Assembly (NCBI RefSeq): GCF_001310085.1
Contig: NZ_CP012643.1
Location: 4,656,001 to 4,720,000, forward strand
Length of the DNA: 64,000 bases
Direction of reading: 5' to 3'
DNA from: Rufibacter tibetensis
GTDB taxonomy: Bacteria; Bacteroidota; Bacteroidia; Cytophagales; Hymenobacteraceae
This document shows positions 34,147 to 46,585 of this stretch, in pieces. The notes beneath the pieces are model-generated. The model did no database searches. It was not told the DNA's origin and worked only from the letters and a program-made list of their open reading frames with translations. Each line of letters starts with the position of its first letter. Within the stretch, counting starts at the first letter, position 1. A program made the position numbers and the translations under genes.

Positions 34147-34719
34147 ATGCTAATAGGCTACGCCAGGATTTCCACAATTCTTCAGAATGCTGATTTGCAA
34201 CACGACACGCTCTCTCTTGCTGGGTGCGAAAAAATATTCACCGATAAGATTTCAGGTACTGTCACGGAGAGACCTGCTCTAACTAAGGTGAAGGAGATTC
34301 TGAGACGTGGGGATACTTTGGTGGTATGGCGGTTGGATAGATTAGGCAGGTCATTGAAAGACCTTATAGATTGGATGAACTACCTGGAGAGCGAAGGCAT
34401 AGCCCTGAAAAGTTTGCAGGAGTCCATAGATACCAGCACCGCCACAGGAAAGCTGGTATTCCACATCTTCGCCTCCATGGCTGAGTTCGAGCGGAACCTT
34501 ATAAAAGAACGCACAATGGCTGGTCTTTCTGCTGCCAGAGCTAGGGGTCGTGTGGGTGGTCGCCCAAAGAAGATGAACGAGGACAAGAGAAAGCTCGCTG
34601 TTCGTCTTTATAATGAGAAACACCATTCAATAGATGCTATCTGTGAGATGATGGGTATTTCAAAGCCTACTCTTTACAGCTATGTGAAAAGCGAATCGCG
34701 AAATTTAGAAATCAATTGA
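34147..34719 (+). CDS. Small serine recombinase (resolvase/invertase family)
   Basis: 190 residues, full length for the family. The catalytic domain starts IGYARIST with nucleophile Ser9 and Arg7; WRLDRLGRSLKDL supplies Arg65 and Arg68, and the E-helix reads FHIFASMAEFERNLIKERT. After the RGRVGGRPKKM linker a Hin-type helix-turn-helix (IDAICEMMGISKPTLYSYV) ends the protein. It is divergent from the cassette array and separated from it only by the leader, exactly where an integron would have intI. Such enzymes invert or resolve DNA at dyad sites. Whether it acts on the array is not known. Confidence 0.93.
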   Translation: MLIGYARISTILQNADLQHDTLSLAGCEKIFTDKISGTVTERPALTKVKEILRRGDTLVVWRLDRLGRSLKDLIDWMNYLESEGIALKSLQESIDTSTATGKLVFHIFASMAEFERNLIKERTMAGLSAARARGRVGGRPKKMNEDKRKLAVRLYNEKHHSIDAICEMMGISKPTLYSYVKSESRNLEIN

Positions 34720-35115: not shown

Positions 35116-36060
35116 TTGAACGTTCTAAGTTTGTTTGATGGCATCAGTTGCGGCAGGCTCGCCCTGCAATCATCGGGAATCAAGATTAACAGATATTTCG
35201 CAAGCGAAATAGACAGTGCCGCCATTCATGTATCAAAGAAGAATTTCCCTGACACAATCCATATTGGTGACGTATCAAAGGTGTCTTTCAAAGACGGTCG
35301 TTTGATAACCGAGACTGGAACGTTTGATACAGGTTTGATAGACCTGGTTATTGGCGGACCTCCCTGCCAGTCTTTTTCAAAGCGTGGCAATCAGATGAAC
35401 TTTGATGATAGCAGGGGCAAACTTTTCCATGAGTTTGAGCGGCTTCTAAAAGAAACCAAAGCCCCCCTGTTTCTGATGGAGAACGTGAAGATGAACAGAA
35501 AGCACCAGGATGTAATCAGCGGTATATTAGGTGTTGAACCCATCGAGATAAACTCTGCCCTGGTGACCGCACAGAACAGGGCAAGGCTCTACTGGACCAA
35601 CATCGCAAACGTACAGCAACCCGCTGACAAAGGGATAAGGTTGCAGGAAATACTTGAAAGCGGTTATACCGAGAAGGAGAAGTCTTTCTGCATCACCGCC
35701 ACCTACGGCAATGCCACGGTCCAGAACTACTTCATCAACAGCGAGAGGCAGCTCAAATTCATCCACCCCGTCAAAAAGAACGGCAGCAGGTATTACCTGC
35801 ACGACAGAATCCAAGTAGATATCTACCCAGATAAAGGACTTGAGCGAAACTACTACAGCCTCCAACTTCTAAAACCTTATACTACCAGACTTTCCTGTGC
35901 GGAGGTGGAGAGACTTCAGGGTATACCTGTCGGCTATACTGAGGGCGTTCCAAACCACCAGCGGTACAAACTCATAGGCAATGCCTGGACCGTGCCCGTA
36001 ATCTCCCACATCTTCACAGGTATAAGTTGTGACACTGTAGCTAATGGCTGCTTTCAGTAA
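35116..36060 (+). CDS. DNA (cytosine-5) methyltransferase, orphan
   Basis: 314 residues from a TTG start that places motif I (VLSLFDGISCGRLAL) at the N-terminus. Motif IV is GGPPCQSFSKRGNQ with catalytic Cys84, motif VI MENVKMN (Glu122), motif VIII AQNRARLYW, and motifs IX-X ERLQGIP ... IGNAWTVPVI. Complete for a compact phage-type enzyme. It transfers a methyl group from SAM to cytosine C5. No restriction enzyme is adjacent, though nuclease genes lie 2-4 kb downstream. Target site unknown. Confidence 0.92.
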   Translation: MNVLSLFDGISCGRLALQSSGIKINRYFASEIDSAAIHVSKKNFPDTIHIGDVSKVSFKDGRLITETGTFDTGLIDLVIGGPPCQSFSKRGNQMNFDDSRGKLFHEFERLLKETKAPLFLMENVKMNRKHQDVISGILGVEPIEINSALVTAQNRARLYWTNIANVQQPADKGIRLQEILESGYTEKEKSFCITATYGNATVQNYFINSERQLKFIHPVKKNGSRYYLHDRIQVDIYPDKGLERNYYSLQLLKPYTTRLSCAEVERLQGIPVGYTEGVPNHQRYKLIGNAWTVPVISHIFTGISCDTVANGCFQ

Positions 36061-37556: not shown

Positions 37557-37685
37557 AATAATAACACAAATCATCTAGCCACTATGGAGGATTTGGCCAG
37601 CAAACTCAGAACCAAAGGCGATAACATCAAACAGTTTCTGTTCATCTTCGCAAACAAACTCAAAACGTTTTAACGAAACATTTAC

Positions 37686-39290
37686 ATGGAAACCATACTC
37701 AATGATGGGTACTGCCCAGAATGCCTTATAAACGGCAGAAGCGTAAGCCTCCAACTCAATAATGAAGACTTCTGGGAATGCCCAGAGACAAACCTACAAT
37801 TGGCGGTGTATGGCATTGAGGCAGTAACGTTGAAGTTCAGGGGTGTTGGTCAGTTCAGAAGTAAAGCTACCTATGGCTCTGACCAAATAGACGGGGCTAT
37901 TCTTTTCCGTTCTAAAGGAGTCTCCACGGACTCAGACAGGTCTGCATTCAGCTCTGAGGAAGAGCTAAGGGAATACCTTACCAATGAAGTTGAGCCGCAG
38001 AAAGAGTTTAACCTATCTAATCTGGCGGACTCCTATGCGAAATACAGATATGGAAACCCATTCACCCATGAAAACTCCCCCCTGCCCTACCAACGGCAAT
38101 CCAGGTTCTTTAATATTGACTTTGAGAATAAGGAGATAATAAGGAAGCTGGAAATACGTGATGCGGAAGAGGGTGTGGAATCTCTACGCTCATACACGCA
38201 CCTCTATAGTCTGTTGATGAATCTGTTTCAACGGTATCAAGACGGTAACATAAACTGGCTACCAGAAATGGGCATGAGCCTTAATCAACTTGAATTGTGC
38301 AACAAGCACCTTCATAATCAACCAGAGCCAGTAACCAATGTGGAAGACAAAACTATCCTGCGGAAGAGGCTTATGGATTTCATTGTAGACCTTATTGAAA
38401 TCATCTACCACGGCAAGGCCATTGAAGCTACTACTGTACATTCTATGTCATACCAAAATTCTTCAACTGTACCTAAGGCTGATTTCACACTTACCTTGCA
38501 GGATATCCTGAACCTAAAGACTGACCTGTTCAGGAACGCCAAGGTGAAACTGGTTCGCCATAAGGATAACAGGAAAGAGTACCGTGAACTGATTAGGGGT
38601 AAGTCAACGCTGCTCGAATACCAAAGACAGCAGAGCAAGGAAGTCTTCAAAGGATGTGATTACATCATCTCGTTCATAGGCCAAGAAAGCACCAAATCCC
38701 TCCTTTTCGGCATTTACAAAGTGAACGGGATAGAAAAGCGGGAGAACTACTTCTACTATGATTTGGAGCAGGTGCATGAACTGGATTACCTCTATGACCG
38801 AGTGGTGATTGATTGGGGCGCAAGTGCAATCACGTGGCACCAATGGTATGACAAACAGCCAAAGGAAATCGTGCAGATACTACCTAAAGGTTACTTAGGC
38901 TCCTTCCCTGGCTTGCTAAATTTTGTGCTTGACTTTGACGAGCTTGAAAAGCTCATTGAAAACCCTGACGCCAATCAAGATTGGAAAAATCACCTGTCTT
39001 CTGTCAACGGAGTCTATATGATATGGGATACCAAGACGGGAAACCAGTATATCGGCTCAGCATACGGTAAAGACGGTGTATGGCAGCGATGGAGCGAATA
39101 TGTTACCTCTAACCATGGCGGAAATAAGAAACTTATTGAGCTTTGCGCTGAAACTGGTTACCACAGAAACTTCCGCTTTTCCTTACTTCAATCCTTGCCG
39201 AGTAATATGGACAAGAAGGAAGTGATTGCCATTGAATCACTGCTGAAGCAAAAACTCGGCACAAGGGTTCATGGATTGAACTCGAACTGA
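37686..39290 (+). CDS. Large protein with C-terminal GIY-YIG nuclease domain
   Basis: 534 residues. The last 95 residues are a GIY-YIG domain: GVYMIWDTKTGNQYIGSAYG (about 442-461), RWSEYV with the catalytic Arg, and EVIAIESLLKQKLGT with the metal-binding Glu. The first 440 residues have no family I recognise. They begin with a possible zinc site (CPECLINGRS ... FWECPE) and contain a section with FIGQESTKSLLFGIYKVNG and DWGASAITWHQWYDKQPKEIV. First gene of a four-gene operon (gaps 18, 43 and 7 bp). A restriction or defence nuclease is plausible. Confidence 0.8.
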   Translation: METILNDGYCPECLINGRSVSLQLNNEDFWECPETNLQLAVYGIEAVTLKFRGVGQFRSKATYGSDQIDGAILFRSKGVSTDSDRSAFSSEEELREYLTNEVEPQKEFNLSNLADSYAKYRYGNPFTHENSPLPYQRQSRFFNIDFENKEIIRKLEIRDAEEGVESLRSYTHLYSLLMNLFQRYQDGNINWLPEMGMSLNQLELCNKHLHNQPEPVTNVEDKTILRKRLMDFIVDLIEIIYHGKAIEATTVHSMSYQNSSTVPKADFTLTLQDILNLKTDLFRNAKVKLVRHKDNRKEYRELIRGKSTLLEYQRQQSKEVFKGCDYIISFIGQESTKSLLFGIYKVNGIEKRENYFYYDLEQVHELDYLYDRVVIDWGASAITWHQWYDKQPKEIVQILPKGYLGSFPGLLNFVLDFDELEKLIENPDANQDWKNHLSSVNGVYMIWDTKTGNQYIGSAYGKDGVWQRWSEYVTSNHGGNKKLIELCAETGYHRNFRFSLLQSLPSNMDKKEVIAIESLLKQKLGTRVHGLNSN

Positions 39291-39308
39291 AAACACACCT
39301 GTACAACC

Positions 39309-40262
39309 ATGGTAAATATTGACAACATTATATTCGAGGAACCACGGAAGACCTTCATGGAGATTCTGAAGGTGAACCAACGGGAAGTACCCTTCGCCAA
39401 TCTATTAGGCTTCTTCTTCAGACCGAGGGAAAGGCATGGTCTCAATAAATTGTTCCTTGAAGCACTACTTAACACATGGTGTTCTGACATTGGGCATGCA
39501 GATAATGGTGACGGTGAAAGCATCGTCAGGAACAGAGGTTACAAGAATAACTTAACGAGCCGATTAGCAAATGGAAGTATAGAATCTTCATCAATACTAG
39601 TTAAGGTGGAGCAACCGACTGGACTTGAAAAAAGGATAGATATTCTGATTGAATCTGATGATTTTGTGGTTTGCATTGAATTTAAAATCAACCATGACCT
39701 TGATAATCCGCTTGAAGAATATAAGCGATATGTCATTGAGAATTACCCTGGCAAACTACACTTCTATATTGTACTGACTCCTTTCAAAAAAGAAGCAATC
39801 GGTGAAGCCCGAAGGTACTTCGGACAGCATACAGAGTTCAAACAAGTTATTTTGAGTCATTTTTTCCTACAGGTAAAGGAGGAACTCCACCGCTTCCATA
39901 CTAATGAAAACGAAGTAAATGAATACTACAGGTACTTCACTGATTTTGTGCAGACAGTTGAGAACAGAAAGATTAAGACTCTCAGGTCTCAGGCGTTTAA
40001 GACCCTTCAAGGTGAACTAAACAAGAGTGGCTTGAATTGCGAGTATCACACAAAGAACGGTGGCTTCCTTGAAATAAAAGTCAAAAATGAGGCTTCAAAA
40101 ATCCGCCTCAAACCCGATGGGTGGCAGCTTGAAAAATGGGTAAACAAAAAGCTGACAGACTACACATTGCTTCTTGATAAGAGTACTGGTTTTGAGCAAT
40201 TACTAGGTGAAATCAAAGCATTTCATAAGCTTATCAAAACCACAGTAAGCTTAGTAGATTGA
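39309..40262 (+). CDS. PD-(D/E)XK nuclease family protein
   Basis: 317 residues. The core RIDILIESDDFVVCIEFKIN (about 108-127) gives the D...ExK triad of the restriction-endonuclease fold, followed by DLDNPLEEYKRYVIENY and YIVLTPFK as in bacterial PD-(D/E)XK_9-type proteins. Soluble, no other domain visible. It lies 18 bp after the GIY-YIG gene, so a DNA-cutting role in the same system is likely by context. Confidence 0.8.
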   Translation: MVNIDNIIFEEPRKTFMEILKVNQREVPFANLLGFFFRPRERHGLNKLFLEALLNTWCSDIGHADNGDGESIVRNRGYKNNLTSRLANGSIESSSILVKVEQPTGLEKRIDILIESDDFVVCIEFKINHDLDNPLEEYKRYVIENYPGKLHFYIVLTPFKKEAIGEARRYFGQHTEFKQVILSHFFLQVKEELHRFHTNENEVNEYYRYFTDFVQTVENRKIKTLRSQAFKTLQGELNKSGLNCEYHTKNGGFLEIKVKNEASKIRLKPDGWQLEKWVNKKLTDYTLLLDKSTGFEQLLGEIKAFHKLIKTTVSLVD

Positions 40263-40305
40263 TAATTATTAAATAAGCAGACCATTCTCAATACTAATTG
40301 CATAA

Positions 40306-41055
40306 ATGCCTATCTACCATAAATTTTTAAACAAAAACTGGGGCAATGGCTTCCAGACTCATAACTCAATATTGGACACTGTTCCCTATGAGCCAGAAGC
40401 AATTTTCATTGGCACATTCAACCATGGTTGGGATTGGAACAATGCTGAATTCTTCTACGGTCGTGGCATGTATATGTGGACTATCCTGTCCAACCTCTTC
40501 CTGCATAATCAAAATTTAGAAGTTCAACGGGTCATAGCAGGGAATGACATTGTGCCATTTGAAATATGCCAGCGGGGCAAAATTATCTTTGCAGATATCG
40601 TGAAAGGCACAAAGCCGCATATACTTACTCAACAGGAAGGGAATAGTATTATCGTAAATAACAACTATATATGGGATGATTATGGGGATGACCATTTAGA
40701 TACAATGGGAGCAAATGAGTGGCTGGATGATAACGTGGAAGATATAGTGAAATTCATAAACTCTACGGAATCCATTAAGCACATCTACTTTACTTTCAAA
40801 TCTGGTGGTTGGTTAGTTGATAAACTCAATTTGATAATTGCTCAAACTCCCACAGTTACAGCCTGCTCTATCTTCACCCCTACGGGAAGCGGCTTCAGAC
40901 AGAATCTTATGCAATACCCTGCACGTGCATGGTCACTTGCCCATTGCTGGGTATGGAACGGCTTACCGCACGAAACTCCTATTAACAAACCTAGTTATGG
41001 TCACTTCAACCACGATTGGCTCATAACCAATGAGGTAAATCCCAACAATTTTTGA
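40306..41055 (+). CDS. Uracil-DNA-glycosylase-superfamily-like protein
   Basis: 249 residues. AIFIGTFNHGWDW at about 33-45 and FFYGRGMYMWTILSNLF at about 48-64 correspond to the motif-1 loop and the N-x-F-W helix of the UDG fold (family proteins have IGxxPG ... NxFWxxL). The distal CSIFTPTGSG loop resembles the DNA-intercalating motif. Key residues differ from true glycosylases (FNHG for PG). It could be a glycosylase or a nucleic-acid sensor with that fold. Third gene of the operon. Confidence 0.5.
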   Translation: MPIYHKFLNKNWGNGFQTHNSILDTVPYEPEAIFIGTFNHGWDWNNAEFFYGRGMYMWTILSNLFLHNQNLEVQRVIAGNDIVPFEICQRGKIIFADIVKGTKPHILTQQEGNSIIVNNNYIWDDYGDDHLDTMGANEWLDDNVEDIVKFINSTESIKHIYFTFKSGGWLVDKLNLIIAQTPTVTACSIFTPTGSGFRQNLMQYPARAWSLAHCWVWNGLPHETPINKPSYGHFNHDWLITNEVNPNNF

Positions 41056-41062
41056 AATTATT

Positions 41063-41899
41063 GTGATAACAGACCAAGACACCGATTTCCTTTACCTGGC
41101 TGATACACTACCCAAGATGTATCTAGCTTTCTACAAGTGTTTTGAACGAACCTTGAATGAGGCAGGAATAGAATTTTATCTTCTTCCCAACACTAAAGAT
41201 GTTTGGGCGGTGGATTATATGCCTATTCAGGTGACCAGAGACGAATTCGTTCAGTTCGCCTACAACCCAAGTTATCTTCAGCCTAAGGTATGGCAGAAGA
41301 CCATATCAAACGTGGACAACATTTGCACTTCTATAAACATACAGCCTAAGAAATCAAGAATACTAGTTGACGGTGGCAACGTGGTGAAAGCCACAGACAA
41401 GGTTATCATGTGCCATAGCGTGTTCACCGAGAACCCCAATGTACCAGAGAAGCAACTAATAAAGGAATTGATGGAGCTTTTCCAGGTTGACCAGCTTATC
41501 TTCATCCCAACACAGCCCAAGGACTTCACTGGCCATGCTGACGGTATAGTTCGGTTCCTAGACGATAAGACTGTGTTGATAAACAAATACACAAAGGAGG
41601 ATAAGGGGTTCGGTTTAACCGTCAAGACGGCACTCCACAACGCTGGGCTGGATTGGGTGGAGATTCCATACAACCCCTATTCAAATGCCAAATACAAACA
41701 TTCTAACGGGATTTACATCAACTACCTACAGATGAAGGATTCTTTAATACTTCCTGTTTTCGGTCAGAAAGAAGACGAAGAAGTAGTAAGGCTGTTTGAG
41801 CAGCTATTCCCTAAATTGAAGATTGCAACGGTTAACAGCAATGAGTTAGCCTATGCAGGTGGTATCTTAAATTGTATCACCTGGAACATCAAACTTTAA
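41063..41899 (+). CDS. Agmatine/peptidylarginine-deiminase-like protein
   Basis: 278 residues from a GTG start 7 bp after the preceding gene. It follows the PAD_porph/agmatine deiminase plan: DVWAVDYMPIQV (usually DxWxRDxGP), DGGNVV, FTGHADGIVRFLDD (His158, Asp160) and AGGILNCITWN with candidate nucleophile Cys271. The Arg of the first motif is replaced by Val, and the protein is shorter than biosynthetic agmatine deiminases (about 340-370). It probably acts on a guanidino group, but its place in a nuclease operon suggests a specialised substrate. Confidence 0.78.
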   Translation: MITDQDTDFLYLADTLPKMYLAFYKCFERTLNEAGIEFYLLPNTKDVWAVDYMPIQVTRDEFVQFAYNPSYLQPKVWQKTISNVDNICTSINIQPKKSRILVDGGNVVKATDKVIMCHSVFTENPNVPEKQLIKELMELFQVDQLIFIPTQPKDFTGHADGIVRFLDDKTVLINKYTKEDKGFGLTVKTALHNAGLDWVEIPYNPYSNAKYKHSNGIYINYLQMKDSLILPVFGQKEDEEVVRLFEQLFPKLKIATVNSNELAYAGGILNCITWNIKL

Positions 41900-42116: not shown

Positions 42117-43034
42117 TTATGACATACCGTTTGCTCTCCTTATCATATCAAGGTAATCTTGATAACTTTGTTTACTATAGTTTAATGATTTTGCTAAACC
42201 TTCTATTCCTGGAAATAAAATTTCAGAATTTATATTCATTTCTCTTAAATGTTTAAGAACTGATAATTGAATTTCTTTTGGTATGTTAATTTTCAACAGA
42301 CTTAGTTGGCCTCTTACGAATGAATTTGCACCTGCAATAAGGTCTTGAATATCTACAATATTAGGGTCATTGTTACCTAAATAATCAGACAAATTATCCA
42401 TAAATGAATTCTGTATATTTGTAGGCATTATAAATAGACCTTGTTGTCTATAAAGTCTTTCATTGATATTCTTTGGATGTACCAATACAAGTTTATTTAT
42501 TGTATTGCCTACTTCTTTAATATACTTATTAGCTAATTCTAAAGAGAATGCATCTAATTCCTGTGCTGAAGCAGATGTTTTTTGCTTTTCTCTTCTAAAC
42601 TCAGTATAAGTGTTATAGTTTACAACATATTTGTTTAATGCCCATACAGCAGAGTCCGTTGAACTTTCAAAGATTGCCATAAATGTTGCAACAAATAATG
42701 AATCAGAAAAGTCTACTAATCTTGTGCATGCACCATAATGTTGCATGATTGATAGCCATTCTACATAATCATCTTCGTTTATATTTTTGGATTTAAATAG
42801 AGAATATTTCCATTGGAATTCTTCTATCATTTGCATTTCTTGAGAATGCATAAAAGGTGTACGTGTTTGCTCTGAATATAAACGATTCATTAATCGCTCA
42901 AGTGAAGATGTTATTTTCCAATCTTTGTTAGATTGGCCTCTAAATACTAAATCATCTAATAACTTATCACTTAGTTTAAATATATCTTTCCAATCATTTA
43001 ACGAAGTTTCCAAAAATGAGCGGGATTCTTGCAT
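42117..43034 (-). CDS. FRG-domain protein
   Basis: 305 residues. DLVFRGQSNKDWKITSSLERL (about 28-48) is the FRG motif that names the domain, and MQHYGACTRLVDFSDSLFVATFMAIFE (about 98-124) its second block. FRG proteins are common near toxin, phage and defence genes; activity is not established. Monocistronic, opposite to the deiminase operon, in AT-rich DNA. No partner toxin is obvious next to it. Confidence 0.82.
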   Translation of the reverse strand: MQESRSFLETSLNDWKDIFKLSDKLLDDLVFRGQSNKDWKITSSLERLMNRLYSEQTRTPFMHSQEMQMIEEFQWKYSLFKSKNINEDDYVEWLSIMQHYGACTRLVDFSDSLFVATFMAIFESSTDSAVWALNKYVVNYNTYTEFRREKQKTSASAQELDAFSLELANKYIKEVGNTINKLVLVHPKNINERLYRQQGLFIMPTNIQNSFMDNLSDYLGNNDPNIVDIQDLIAGANSFVRGQLSLLKINIPKEIQLSVLKHLREMNINSEILFPGIEGLAKSLNYSKQSYQDYLDMIRRANGMS

Positions 43035-43909: not shown

Positions 43910-44104
43910 GTGAAAGAGATTACAGAAAAGGAATGCACGGTAGTAAGGGTTAACACTTACACAAGAGAGAGATTGAACAAGCTAAGGAAAAAGATTAGCA
44001 AAGACACAGGGTTTAACATATCAACAGATGCACTGATTAACCTCATTATAGATGGCTTTGACCACCAAAAAATAAGGTTGGTCAATGTCACTGAATGTAA
44101 ATAA
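43910..44104 (+). CDS. Small ribbon-helix-helix-like regulator
   Basis: 64 residues from a GTG start. TVVRVNTYTRERLNKLRKKISKDTGFNISTDALINLIIDGFD gives one strand and two helices typical of ribbon-helix-helix repressors. Its end overlaps the polymerase-like gene by 20 bases, so translation is likely coupled and it may control that gene through the repeat at 43792. Confidence 0.6.
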   Translation: MKEITEKECTVVRVNTYTRERLNKLRKKISKDTGFNISTDALINLIIDGFDHQKIRLVNVTECK

Positions 44105-45452
44105 CCAGAACCTAAAATATCACTTCGTACCAGCAAACCTAAGCATCAACGACCTCAATGTAGCTCTTACGGGTAAGCCAGGTGTTGGACTAATCACCCA
44201 TAAAGCGTTGAACTTCTACACACTTATTGTGAAGAAGCTAATCAATAACATCCTATTCGATGATGGCAAAAGCAAGTGGGTGTGCATCAACCACCTTGAG
44301 AGAAGGTGTCTATTAGGAAAAGACTATAAGGAAACTATCAAACTGCTTGTAAATGCTGAGTTACTGTTGGAAGACCCAAAATGGATTCATTTCAAGGGCG
44401 GTAAAAATAACGAGACTAAGAAATACGCACTACCTACACATTTACTTAAAGGAGATAAGGTATTTCAGCAGGTCAAGATATCCAACAAGACTTCAATCCA
44501 GAAGATGATTGCAAGGTTCAATAACCTCAGGCTGAAGAATTCGAAGCATGAGTTCTGGCGCAACAAGATGATTCATGCCAGCAAAAGGTTGCTACTCCAT
44601 GATAATGAAGAATCACGTGCCGCAGTACAGGCGCACATAGACAAGGTGAACAGCAGTAACCGTAGGTTCAAGCTTCGCCTAAGCGCAAAAGAAATCGTAG
44701 ATGTGTTCAACTATAGTGCGCTTGACCAAGGCAACATTGACCCATTCGGGAAGCGTGTGCATACCAGGGTGACCAACATGGCAAAGGGTATCAGGAGGTT
44801 CCTTTACTTCGATAACAGACCTAATGAGAAGTTAGGGTGCGTTGACATCGTGAACAGCCAGCCAGTGTTTATGAGCATCGCAACACCAGCAATCATCCAC
44901 CAGTTTACACCTGAATTGATAGAGGCCATGCCCACTGTGGCGAAATATCACAATGACCCAGAGGTACTACAATTTAAGCAGATTTGCGGTGACGGTTCAA
45001 TCTATGAACATATAATGGACTATTTCTCTGCAAAGGGCATTAAGATAACACGTGACCAAGCCAAGCCTATTGCCTATACATGCTTCTTCGGCAACTACAT
45101 CCCCTATGAACTAGATAAACTGAAGACTGAACACAAAAAAATGGCTTACCAGTTCTTAAAGGATGAATACAATGGAATGTACAGGATGTTCAGAGAAATG
45201 AAGCTGGGTAAGTGGTCTGAGAACAACGGCAATAGACAAAAAGACTACGCCAATAACTGCATGCTTGCCCAAAGATTGGAGAGTTCAATCTTCTTCACCA
45301 TCATAGTACCCGCTGTGTGGGATGCGGGTTATCATGACATCACAACCATTCACGATAGTATCATGGCTCCTGAGCAGGACTGTGATGCTATCAAGCAGGT
45401 TATGATGAACGAGTTCAAGAAGTTGAATATTAAGTTGAAGCTATCGTCTTAA
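44085..45452 (+). CDS. Divergent family A DNA polymerase-like protein
   Basis: 455 residues. Three blocks match the palm and fingers of family A polymerases. Motif A is CVDIVNSQPVFMS (Asp253, Gln258), preceded by KRVHTRVTNMAKGIRRFL like the GR.....N..k..R segment. Motif B is RDQAKPIAYTCFFGN (about 323-337). Motif C is TTIHDSIMAPEQD (His421, Asp422). No exonuclease domain is present; the first 200 residues are basic, helical and unrecognised. It may be the replication protein of a former plasmid or integrated element. Confidence 0.68.
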   Translation: MSLNVNNQNLKYHFVPANLSINDLNVALTGKPGVGLITHKALNFYTLIVKKLINNILFDDGKSKWVCINHLERRCLLGKDYKETIKLLVNAELLLEDPKWIHFKGGKNNETKKYALPTHLLKGDKVFQQVKISNKTSIQKMIARFNNLRLKNSKHEFWRNKMIHASKRLLLHDNEESRAAVQAHIDKVNSSNRRFKLRLSAKEIVDVFNYSALDQGNIDPFGKRVHTRVTNMAKGIRRFLYFDNRPNEKLGCVDIVNSQPVFMSIATPAIIHQFTPELIEAMPTVAKYHNDPEVLQFKQICGDGSIYEHIMDYFSAKGIKITRDQAKPIAYTCFFGNYIPYELDKLKTEHKKMAYQFLKDEYNGMYRMFREMKLGKWSENNGNRQKDYANNCMLAQRLESSIFFTIIVPAVWDAGYHDITTIHDSIMAPEQDCDAIKQVMMNEFKKLNIKLKLSS

Positions 45453-46027: not shown

Positions 46028-46585
46028 ATGAAAAAAGATATAAATAACGCAAACAACAAAGAAAGCATATTGAAAGAAAAGAAAGAAAGGTTTTCAACGT
46101 ACTTATCTGTAATTACAGTTATTCTTAGCTTAGCAGCTTTTGTAATAAGCATGATAACACTGCTTGACCAACATAAAATGCAAGCTTATACATACTGGCA
46201 AGATTATTTGAACTTAGCTGTAGAGAACCCTAAGCTGGCAAATGGATTAACTACAATCGATAAAATAAGTATAATTGAGATTGCAAAAATGGAGCCTGGT
46301 ACGCCAGGCCACATAGATTCTACCCGTGATAAATTTGTAGAATATGCATGGTTCGTCACCAATACACTTAATGCCGCGGAAATTGTACATAATCTTCATA
46401 GCAGAGACAAATATTGGAGAGAAACGATATTAGACGTCCTGAAAAAACATACAGCTTTTTACAAGAGCCGCAGCTTCAACTTCGAAGATTACGAAGAAGA
46501 CTTTCAGGCTATAATCAAAAATGCTATCGCAAAGAAGATGGCAGAAGATAAAGAGAGAGCAATAAAAAATGGAAAAATAAATTAA
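46028..46585 (+). CDS. Single-pass membrane protein
   Basis: 185 residues: charged N-terminus, one membrane helix (about 28-48, VITVILSLAAFVISMITLL), then a helical cytoplasmic or periplasmic domain with paired charges. DQHKMQAYTYWQDYLNLAVENPKLANG recalls small membrane-bound accessory proteins of unknown role. Monocistronic. Confidence 0.6.
   Translation: MKKDINNANNKESILKEKKERFSTYLSVITVILSLAAFVISMITLLDQHKMQAYTYWQDYLNLAVENPKLANGLTTIDKISIIEIAKMEPGTPGHIDSTRDKFVEYAWFVTNTLNAAEIVHNLHSRDKYWRETILDVLKKHTAFYKSRSFNFEDYEEDFQAIIKNAIAKKMAEDKERAIKNGKIN

Follow-up and report, generated by a model that had tools for sequence, protein, structure and literature searches.

Exchangeable DNA-attacking partners of a deiminase-like gene from Rufibacter tibetensis and its relatives

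DNA glycosylases with a role in phage defence are represented by the systems Brig3-BapA and Brig1. According to its description (PMC13160076), Brig3-BapA works in two steps: BapA strips glucose from a base and Brig3, a glycosylase of the uracil-DNA glycosylase (UDG) superfamily, then excises that base. The same source reports that the glycosylase gene comes first and overlaps the gene of the base-tailoring enzyme, that the pair has a defence-island setting, and that an adjoining open reading frame (ORF) with predicted ADP-ribosylglycohydrolase activity was ruled out by the authors for the tested defence (PMC13160076). Brig1 is likewise a UDG-superfamily glycosylase used against phages with modified bases; it alone gives the immunity of its operon, and the word "deiminase" is absent from that text (PMC11078745). 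Here we present an analysis of a window of 64,000 nucleotides (the whole stretch of DNA that was analysed; positions 4,656,001 to 4,720,000 of contig NZ_CP012643.1, assembly GCF_001310085.1) from Rufibacter tibetensis, which contains a row of four genes (genes 1 to 4, Table 1) for a GIY-YIG protein, a PD-(D/E)XK nuclease, a UDG-like protein and a deiminase-like enzyme. The original prediction, made from the sequence of the window, had taken these four genes as one system unlike any known and had suggested phage defence, perhaps against modified DNA. The unit that recurs is gene 4 with one DNA-attacking partner, which in the window would be gene 3.

The order and overlap of genes reported for Brig3-BapA are seen in many gene-4 loci, whereas the window has a gap of 7 bp, and two gene-4 homologues are fused to an ADP-ribosylglycohydrolase domain. 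The two systems differ in chemistry, BapA being given there as an ASCH-like deglucosylase and gene 4 being a guanidine-modifying enzyme of the PAD_porph family, and in that the partner of gene 4 is interchangeable among unrelated folds.

For the genomic survey 150 genomes of the family were searched with genes 3 and 4, and 40 neighbourhoods were read. To the wider gene-4 set genome_contigs contributed the 80 best of its relatives, which number at least 474, and viral_contigs contributed 13; all of these were mapped. The window and 133 loci (L031-L163) yielded 113 distinct, strong and nearly full-length gene-4 domains; the other 21 loci were set aside as repeats of counted loci, as truncated or as lacking gene 4. 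Since the loci were found via gene 4, the counts measure the frequency of partners at gene 4 and not that of gene 4 at the partners. In 73 of the 113 loci the gene immediately before gene 4, in the same orientation, is a partner, and it encodes an alkyladenine DNA glycosylase (AAG)-like protein in 33, a PacI-like HNH nuclease in 21 and a UDG-like protein in 19 cases. The remaining upstream positions are taken by another gene (26), an opposite-strand gene (11), a contig edge (2) or a fusion (1), the latter being a single ORF in L034 that joins an HNH domain to gene 4. Among the 73 pairs the partner gene overlaps gene 4 by 4 bases in 28 and by 14 bases in 9. Within two genes on either side a partner is present in 76 loci.

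As a control within the same loci, partners account for 75 of the 339 ORFs at a distance of up to two genes from gene 4 and for 1 of the 565 ORFs at a distance of four or more. A chance or passive linkage in defence islands, with gene 4 as an unrelated metabolic gene, would agree with the 37 of 113 loci in which no member of the three partner families is near and with the occurrence of relatives of genes 1 and 2 elsewhere. It is opposed by the gene overlaps, the fusion and the repeated exchange at one junction described below, and it was rejected on the within-locus control, which makes it extremely improbable. In this mobile module gene 4 is the constant component, and its partnership with an exchangeable DNA-attacking gene is well supported.

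For the reverse test 295 genomes of the class were drawn once, and adjacency was counted by eye. Gene 4 adjoins, on the same strand, 4 of 39 UDG, 3 of 9 HNH and 9 of 14 AAG places; the four UDG places are that of the window and three others, which are the four best matches, and one of the nine AAG places, on G373 contig 13, lies downstream of gene 4 and matches weakly (E 1.6e-6). These genomes hold 29 gene-4 places with an E of 1e-30 or lower, 16 of which have a partner as neighbour. As a check the original prediction had named conservation of the four genes together: UDG-like relatives lie apart from gene 4 in 35 of 39 places, whereas gene 4 with one partner recurs. The pair could also be an analogue of restriction-modification, in which gene 4 alters the host DNA so that the resident partner spares the host and the two form a selfish addiction unit. 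The close association of gene 4 with a gene for a nuclease or glycosylase, and the mobility, resemble type II restriction-modification, and PacI itself is of type II. However, the partners are often without adjacent gene 4 (35 of 39 UDG, 6 of 9 HNH and 5 of 14 AAG places) and are seemingly tolerated alone, and deimination of host bases would presumably be mutagenic. As the partner families also live alone, the UDG-like family most often, a toxin that needs gene 4 as antidote is argued against, and such an analogue is improbable.

A tree of the 113 gene-4 domains implies at least 22 changes in the type of partner (quick method; L059 taken as AAG). Seven pairs of loci with different partners have a gene-4 DNA identity of 75% or more, and these are all such pairs. 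In the Cyclobacteriaceae, L103 and L104 (UDG) share 82-89% identity with L106 and L108 (HNH) over gene 4 and 83-96% over its first 90 bases, with only 56-60% in the 300 bases upstream; the corresponding values for L086/L088 are 85%, 90% and 57%. Random pairs have a mean upstream identity of 55% (sd 4.5, n=145). The comparisons of the window with R. hautae (gene 4 76%, first 90 bases 68%, upstream 56%) and of L055 with L062 (78%, 63% and 48%) are in agreement, with a less well conserved start of gene 4. In 20 of 21 pairs with the same partner the upstream identity is 74-99%; the exception, L114/L161 with 54%, consists of loci that are not close relatives (36% protein identity). The break in homology sits at the start of gene 4, where partners, as the alignments indicate, have repeatedly been exchanged.

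The three partner folds are unrelated, and the only trait that they have in common is the ability to attack DNA. The profile of the HNH partners (cluster A) matches R.PacI (E 9.2e-13) over the nuclease part of PacI, with a D-R ... C-x-x-C-N stretch common to both; they differ from PacI and other HNH type II enzymes in being paired with gene 4. A 292-aa ORF beside the L034 fusion was considered by eye as a nucleotide-modification domain, for which Pfam gave nothing useful.

The AAG-like partners (cluster C) have no meaningful sequence match in PDB, solved AAG included, and because of this an AlphaFold2 (AF2) model was built for the L084 protein from 32 sequences (pLDDT 89.8, pTM 0.89). The top four PDB matches of the model are all human AAG with a probability of 0.98-1.00, followed by a fifth match at 0.18; the best E is 6.7e-5 at 13-14% identity. 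On this one model, cluster C is predicted to have the AAG fold. E-x-Y, two Asp and an Arg are invariant in the family, and we take the E-x-Y and the Arg, by eye, to correspond to AAG residues.

Gene 3 had been called UDG-like, a call that is supported by its relatives and not by its own sequence: searched alone, it gave no Pfam or PADLOC match, PF03167 included. The profile of the UDG-like family matches PDB entry 2l3f (E 7.6e-10), which is listed there as uncharacterised and which we take to be a putative UDG. At an E of at most 0.05, PF03167 is hit by six of the 20 members of the family, the lowest value being 2e-10; L103, L104 and L107 exceed the Pfam gathering score. By hhalign the gene 3 clade is joined to the L054-like group (98.6%) and this to the L103-like group (98.0%). 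Gene 3 is probably a divergent member of the UDG superfamily that is reached only through these relatives. The AF2 model of gene 3 itself (13 sequences) is poor, with a pLDDT of 52.5, and the PDB search with this poor model gave no significant match (best E 0.12; UNG2 at rank 19, probability 0.28). In the UDG superfamily the Asn of motif 1 has a catalytic role. The L054-like relatives, as well as L053, L103, L104 and L107, have R-N (or H-N) ahead of the final W of motif 1; gene 3, L051, L033/L036 and L069/L070 lack it. A 229-aa gene of L035 was rejected as a UDG, with a weak match (E 0.0056) and no support by hhalign.

Judged from its sequence, gene 4 belongs to the agmatine deiminase superfamily, as a short guanidine-modifying enzyme with intact catalytic residues. 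It matches PAD_porph (PF04371) with E 4.1e-29 and 102.3 bits against a gathering cut-off of 25, and D51, D103, H158, D160 and C271 are kept in 111-113 of 113 homologues. In guanidine-modifying enzymes two Asp hold the guanidine group and the Cys attacks it. The changed Arg motif pointed out in the original prediction is real, W-A-V-D in place of W-x-R-D, but not unusual, the position being Val in 48 and Arg in 59 of the 113 homologues. Relatives in PDB include 6b10 and 2jer; the solved ones carry the name of agmatine deiminase or of (putative) peptidyl-arginine deiminase. Gene 4 shares the superfamily and the catalytic residues with these enzymes, but it is shorter (278 residues versus 330-389 in solved chains), it stays far under the cut-off of the agmatine deiminase equivalog TIGR03380 (61.3 bits versus 381.8; best stretch residues 213-275), and it has DNA-attacking partners.

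The names of the solved relatives would suit an infection-triggered metabolite switch, in which the substrate of gene 4 is a small molecule or protein arginine, with agmatine or a phage-altered metabolite as examples, and the product or the protein itself controls the partner. A constant regulator with interchangeable effectors would account for the partner swaps, and the hydrophobic N-terminal extension of a Prevotella/Bacteroidales group might be a sensor. This reading is opposed by the score of 61 against the cut-off of 382 for a true agmatine deiminase, and a shared DNA substrate fits better with the HNH-gene 4 fusion and with recurrent partners that are limited to DNA-base and DNA-cutting folds. 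We consider the metabolite switch unlikely. The homologues of the Prevotella/Bacteroidales group (L143, L147, L148, L150) have 423-440 aa, with a hydrophobic segment in the extension, and are preceded by a small lipoprotein-like gene (by eye). The fusions to an ADP-ribosylglycohydrolase domain (Pfam) are L049 4883-6838 (-) and L050 4326-6290 (+), from two genomes of the family.

Gene 4 has a match (E 1e-3) in 51 of the 150 family genomes and gene 3 in 10. Relatives of gene 4 occur in records labelled Planctomycetota, Omnitrophota and Cloacimonadota, all of them metagenome-assembled genomes, and, at lower identity, in plasmid and in phage or viral records. Two Flammeovirga plasmids carry gene 4 followed by a PacI-like gene, a relative with 28% identity is present in seven phage records, and apparently decayed copies were found in G124, G015 and G108. 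A distant relative is carried by the Bacteroides phages DAC19 (L184 8104-9783) and SJC03 (L186 5704-6756), in DAC19 directly after an HNH endonuclease gene; these two phage relatives may serve counter-defence or homing.

AAG and family-6 UDG enzymes remove damaged or deaminated purines, and guanine oxidation yields guanidine-bearing lesions. The module could accordingly be a DNA-repair pair without a role in defence, the partners removing such purines and gene 4 handling a guanidine-containing guanine lesion. AAG and UDG are classical repair folds, and some loci adjoin housekeeping-type genes. The patchy occurrence of gene 4 (51 of 150), its presence in records labelled as other phyla and in plasmid and phage records, the apparently decayed copies, the PacI-like nuclease as an equal partner and neighbours that match defence models all speak against repair, which we hold to be quite unlikely.

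Gene 1 is related to Uzume. Its residues 268-534 match the PADLOC model UzuA (E 4.6e-92) over model positions 2-278 of 278, and thus over the full length of the model. The match to the GIY-YIG family in Pfam (E 1.4e-4, 22.5 bits) lies just under the gathering score of 22.6; the translation shows G-V-Y, Y-I-G, R, E and N of the GIY-YIG motif (by eye). The nuclease half of gene 1 is a known candidate defence protein. Gene 1 differs from Uzume by an extra domain of about 250 residues, here called UzuN, and in that the long form accompanies gene 4 in 4 of 4 genomes and the plain core mostly does not. UzuN is fused variously to GIY-YIG, to a PacI-like HNH domain (L037/L076) or to another C-terminal domain (L091); for the latter a UDG-like nature, assigned by eye, was unsupported by hhalign and Pfam. 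Among the viral contigs 119 stretches fitted the UzuN pattern and none was confirmed.

The full-length form of gene 1 is present in 4 of the 150 family genomes (G000, which is the genome of the window with 5.4 Mb in 3 contigs, G012, G034 and G060). In all four it is followed on the same strand by the UDG-like gene and gene 4, and to this extent the genes do belong together. The UDG-like gene comes directly after gene 1 in G012 and G034, and is separated from it by gene 2 in the window and by a 229-aa gene in G060. A fifth genome with UzuN, G007, has it fused to a PacI-like domain instead of GIY-YIG, again ahead of gene 4. The Uzume core was found in 13 family genomes, in 9 of them alone, without UzuN. 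The core locus of G085 also carries a UDG-like ORF and a gene-4 homologue; 7 of the 13 genomes have neither gene 4 nor the UDG-like gene within four genes, and G020, where the core gene was not captured in the ORF calls, counts neither as with nor as without gene 4. A stand-alone Uzume gene in L204 (5084-7792, +) is followed by an ORF that resembles a DndC/PAPS-reductase-type protein (by eye).

Gene 2 matches PDDEXK_4 in Pfam (E 9.2e-13) and PDC-S26 in PADLOC (E 2.3e-29); the domain calls of the original prediction for genes 1, 2 and 4 are all borne out. A close relative of gene 2 occurs in 2 of 150 family genomes, that of the window included, and any match in 6 of 150. In G060 the relative sits after gene 4, and therefore the order of the cluster varies. 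A fixed system of four genes is rejected on the rarity of gene 2 and on the 7 of 13 Uzume cores without gene 4 nearby.

The defence setting was studied with 109 of 257 neighbour proteins (at most 4 ORFs away, at most 2 per locus, 120-700 aa, 63 loci), leaving out the partners and gene 4 itself, and with 109 of 147 control proteins, which are encoded in 20 arbitrarily chosen 12-kb regions from 20 genomes of the class, including that of the window; the control genomes differ from those of the gene-4 loci. With PADLOC at E 1e-8 the neighbours match 166 families and the control matches 2. The number 166 refers to families and not to proteins, and among the first 25 families none is matched by more than 2 of the 109 proteins; IetA, HEC-06, Orf5, type I specificity and SspE are among them. 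In L031 and L032 the HNH-gene 4 pair is preceded by genes for an OLD-family ATPase-TOPRIM protein and for a UvrD-like helicase, which appear Gabija-like by domain content. HsdM lies directly after gene 4 in L108, and the upstream genes of L096, L159 and L160 are HsdS-like, HsdR-like and GIY-YIG-like by eye. The phage-defence setting first suggested by the neighbours in the window is thus supported on a wider set, and the unit of gene 4 and partner probably works in defence. A family of about 355 aa is encoded directly downstream of gene 4 in L033 (7620-8699), L037 (5537-6616) and L049 (3778-4839); the L033 member has a weak HNH match (E 0.0036) under the cut-off.

What unites the recurrent partners, across their different folds, is the attack on DNA, and the simplest common factor is therefore a DNA substrate that gene 4 has prepared. 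The reading that we prefer, and hold tentatively, is a restriction module of two components, gene 4 and its partner, which is directed at phage DNA, most likely with modified bases, and in which tailoring precedes excision or cutting. The Cys-His-Asp chemistry of gene 4 would serve to hydrolyse, on one base of the invading DNA, a group of the amidine or guanidine kind. The altered base would then be excised by a UDG-type or AAG-type glycosylase, or the DNA would be cut at this base by a PacI-like HNH partner. The UzuN-GIY-YIG protein of gene 1, optionally with gene 2, would recognise the target or turn abasic sites into breaks. Base tailoring followed by excision or cutting is preferred because Brig3-BapA works in this way with other enzymes; the action against modified DNA, the order of the steps and the role of UzuN are what we infer. 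It is also possible, with less confidence, that gene 4 represents a new class of zinc-free, cysteine-based deiminases that edit bases of duplex DNA and provide a shared first step for at least three DNA-destroying folds. The target may then be an amidine or guanidine group carried by a hypermodified base, or else the guanidine moiety of guanine.

Several observations weigh against the restriction module. None of the three partner families lies within two genes of gene 4 in 37 of the 113 loci, one gene-4 clade is largely unpartnered, and the partner families are in turn often found without gene 4, in the proportions given above. Some modules adjoin housekeeping-type genes (dnaX-like in L078, xseA-like in L074, permease-like in L093). 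The form of gene 1 seen in the window was met in only 4 genomes, all from the family sample. The match of the cluster-C model to the AAG fold is moderate (TM 0.38-0.47). Gene 3 is without the R-N of motif 1 that many relatives carry before F-W or L-W, and we are unsure of its glycosylase activity because this conserved Arg-Asn is missing and its own model failed. To our knowledge guanidine-modifying enzymes act on small molecules or protein arginine and not on DNA; action on DNA is a candidate activity of gene 4.

Within the window the four ORFs with their coordinates, shared strand and gaps of 18, 43 and 7 bp are exactly as first described, and the longest ORF overlapping them has 131 aa. From the spacing genes 1-4 would form a single transcript; promoter- and terminator-like sites remained below the counts for shuffled sequences. 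The features of the cluster and its surroundings are summarized in Table 1. The recombinase-like ORF and the C5 DNA methyltransferase upstream possibly mark an island border. The methyltransferase and the FRG gene were not noticed as recurrent partners of gene 4, no separate search having been aimed at either.

Table 1. Coordinates of the gene cluster and of neighbouring features in the window
Feature	Position	Strand	Description
Gene 1	37686..39290	+	534 aa; N-terminal UzuN domain (residues 1-253) and Uzume/UzuA core, C-terminal GIY-YIG
UzuN domain of gene 1	37686..38444	+	Residues 1-253 (domain envelope); alignment stretch W-L-P-E/Q-M-G-M-S conserved
GIY-YIG domain of gene 1	39006..39263	+	Residues 441-526, Pfam PF01541
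Gene 2	39309..40262	+	317 aa; PD-(D/E)XK nuclease, PDDEXK_4 / PADLOC PDC-S26; optional member
Gene 3	40306..41055	+	249 aa; probable divergent UDG-superfamily protein by relatives; partner of gene 4
Gene 4	41063..41899	+	278 aa, GTG start; PAD_porph / agmatine deiminase superfamily; constant component
Serine recombinase-like ORF	34147..34719	+	Upstream of cluster; Mpi-family invertase model nearly full length, under cut-off
C5 DNA methyltransferase	35116..36060	+	Upstream of cluster
Small ORF	about 37582..37673	+	About 29 codons, between YkuD gene and gene 1 (by eye); leader or remnant
FRG-domain protein	42117..43034	-	Just past cluster, opposite strand; Pfam E 1.8e-20; PADLOC PDC-S15
ORF near the Drt1b/RTasTM-matching gene	44085..45452	+	455 aa; no match in Pfam, PADLOC or NCBIfam
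Drt1b/RTasTM-matching gene	46028..46585	+	185 aa; PADLOC model match E 1.4e-17

In titles and abstract starts of open-access articles in PubMed Central no paper was found on a deiminase paired with a glycosylase or an HNH nuclease. Glycosylase-based phage defence is known; what appears to be new is that a deiminase takes part and that three unrelated folds replace one another beside it. We know guanidine-modifying enzymes from arginine metabolism and protein citrullination and know of none in DNA restriction. A constant deiminase that swaps partners of the UDG, AAG and PacI types suggests that several folds solve one problem with the same helper, and this shared helper makes the question of the gene-4 substrate directly testable. 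If gene 4 does act on DNA, it would represent a new base-editing chemistry and would be a lead to undescribed base modifications of phages in the Bacteroidota.

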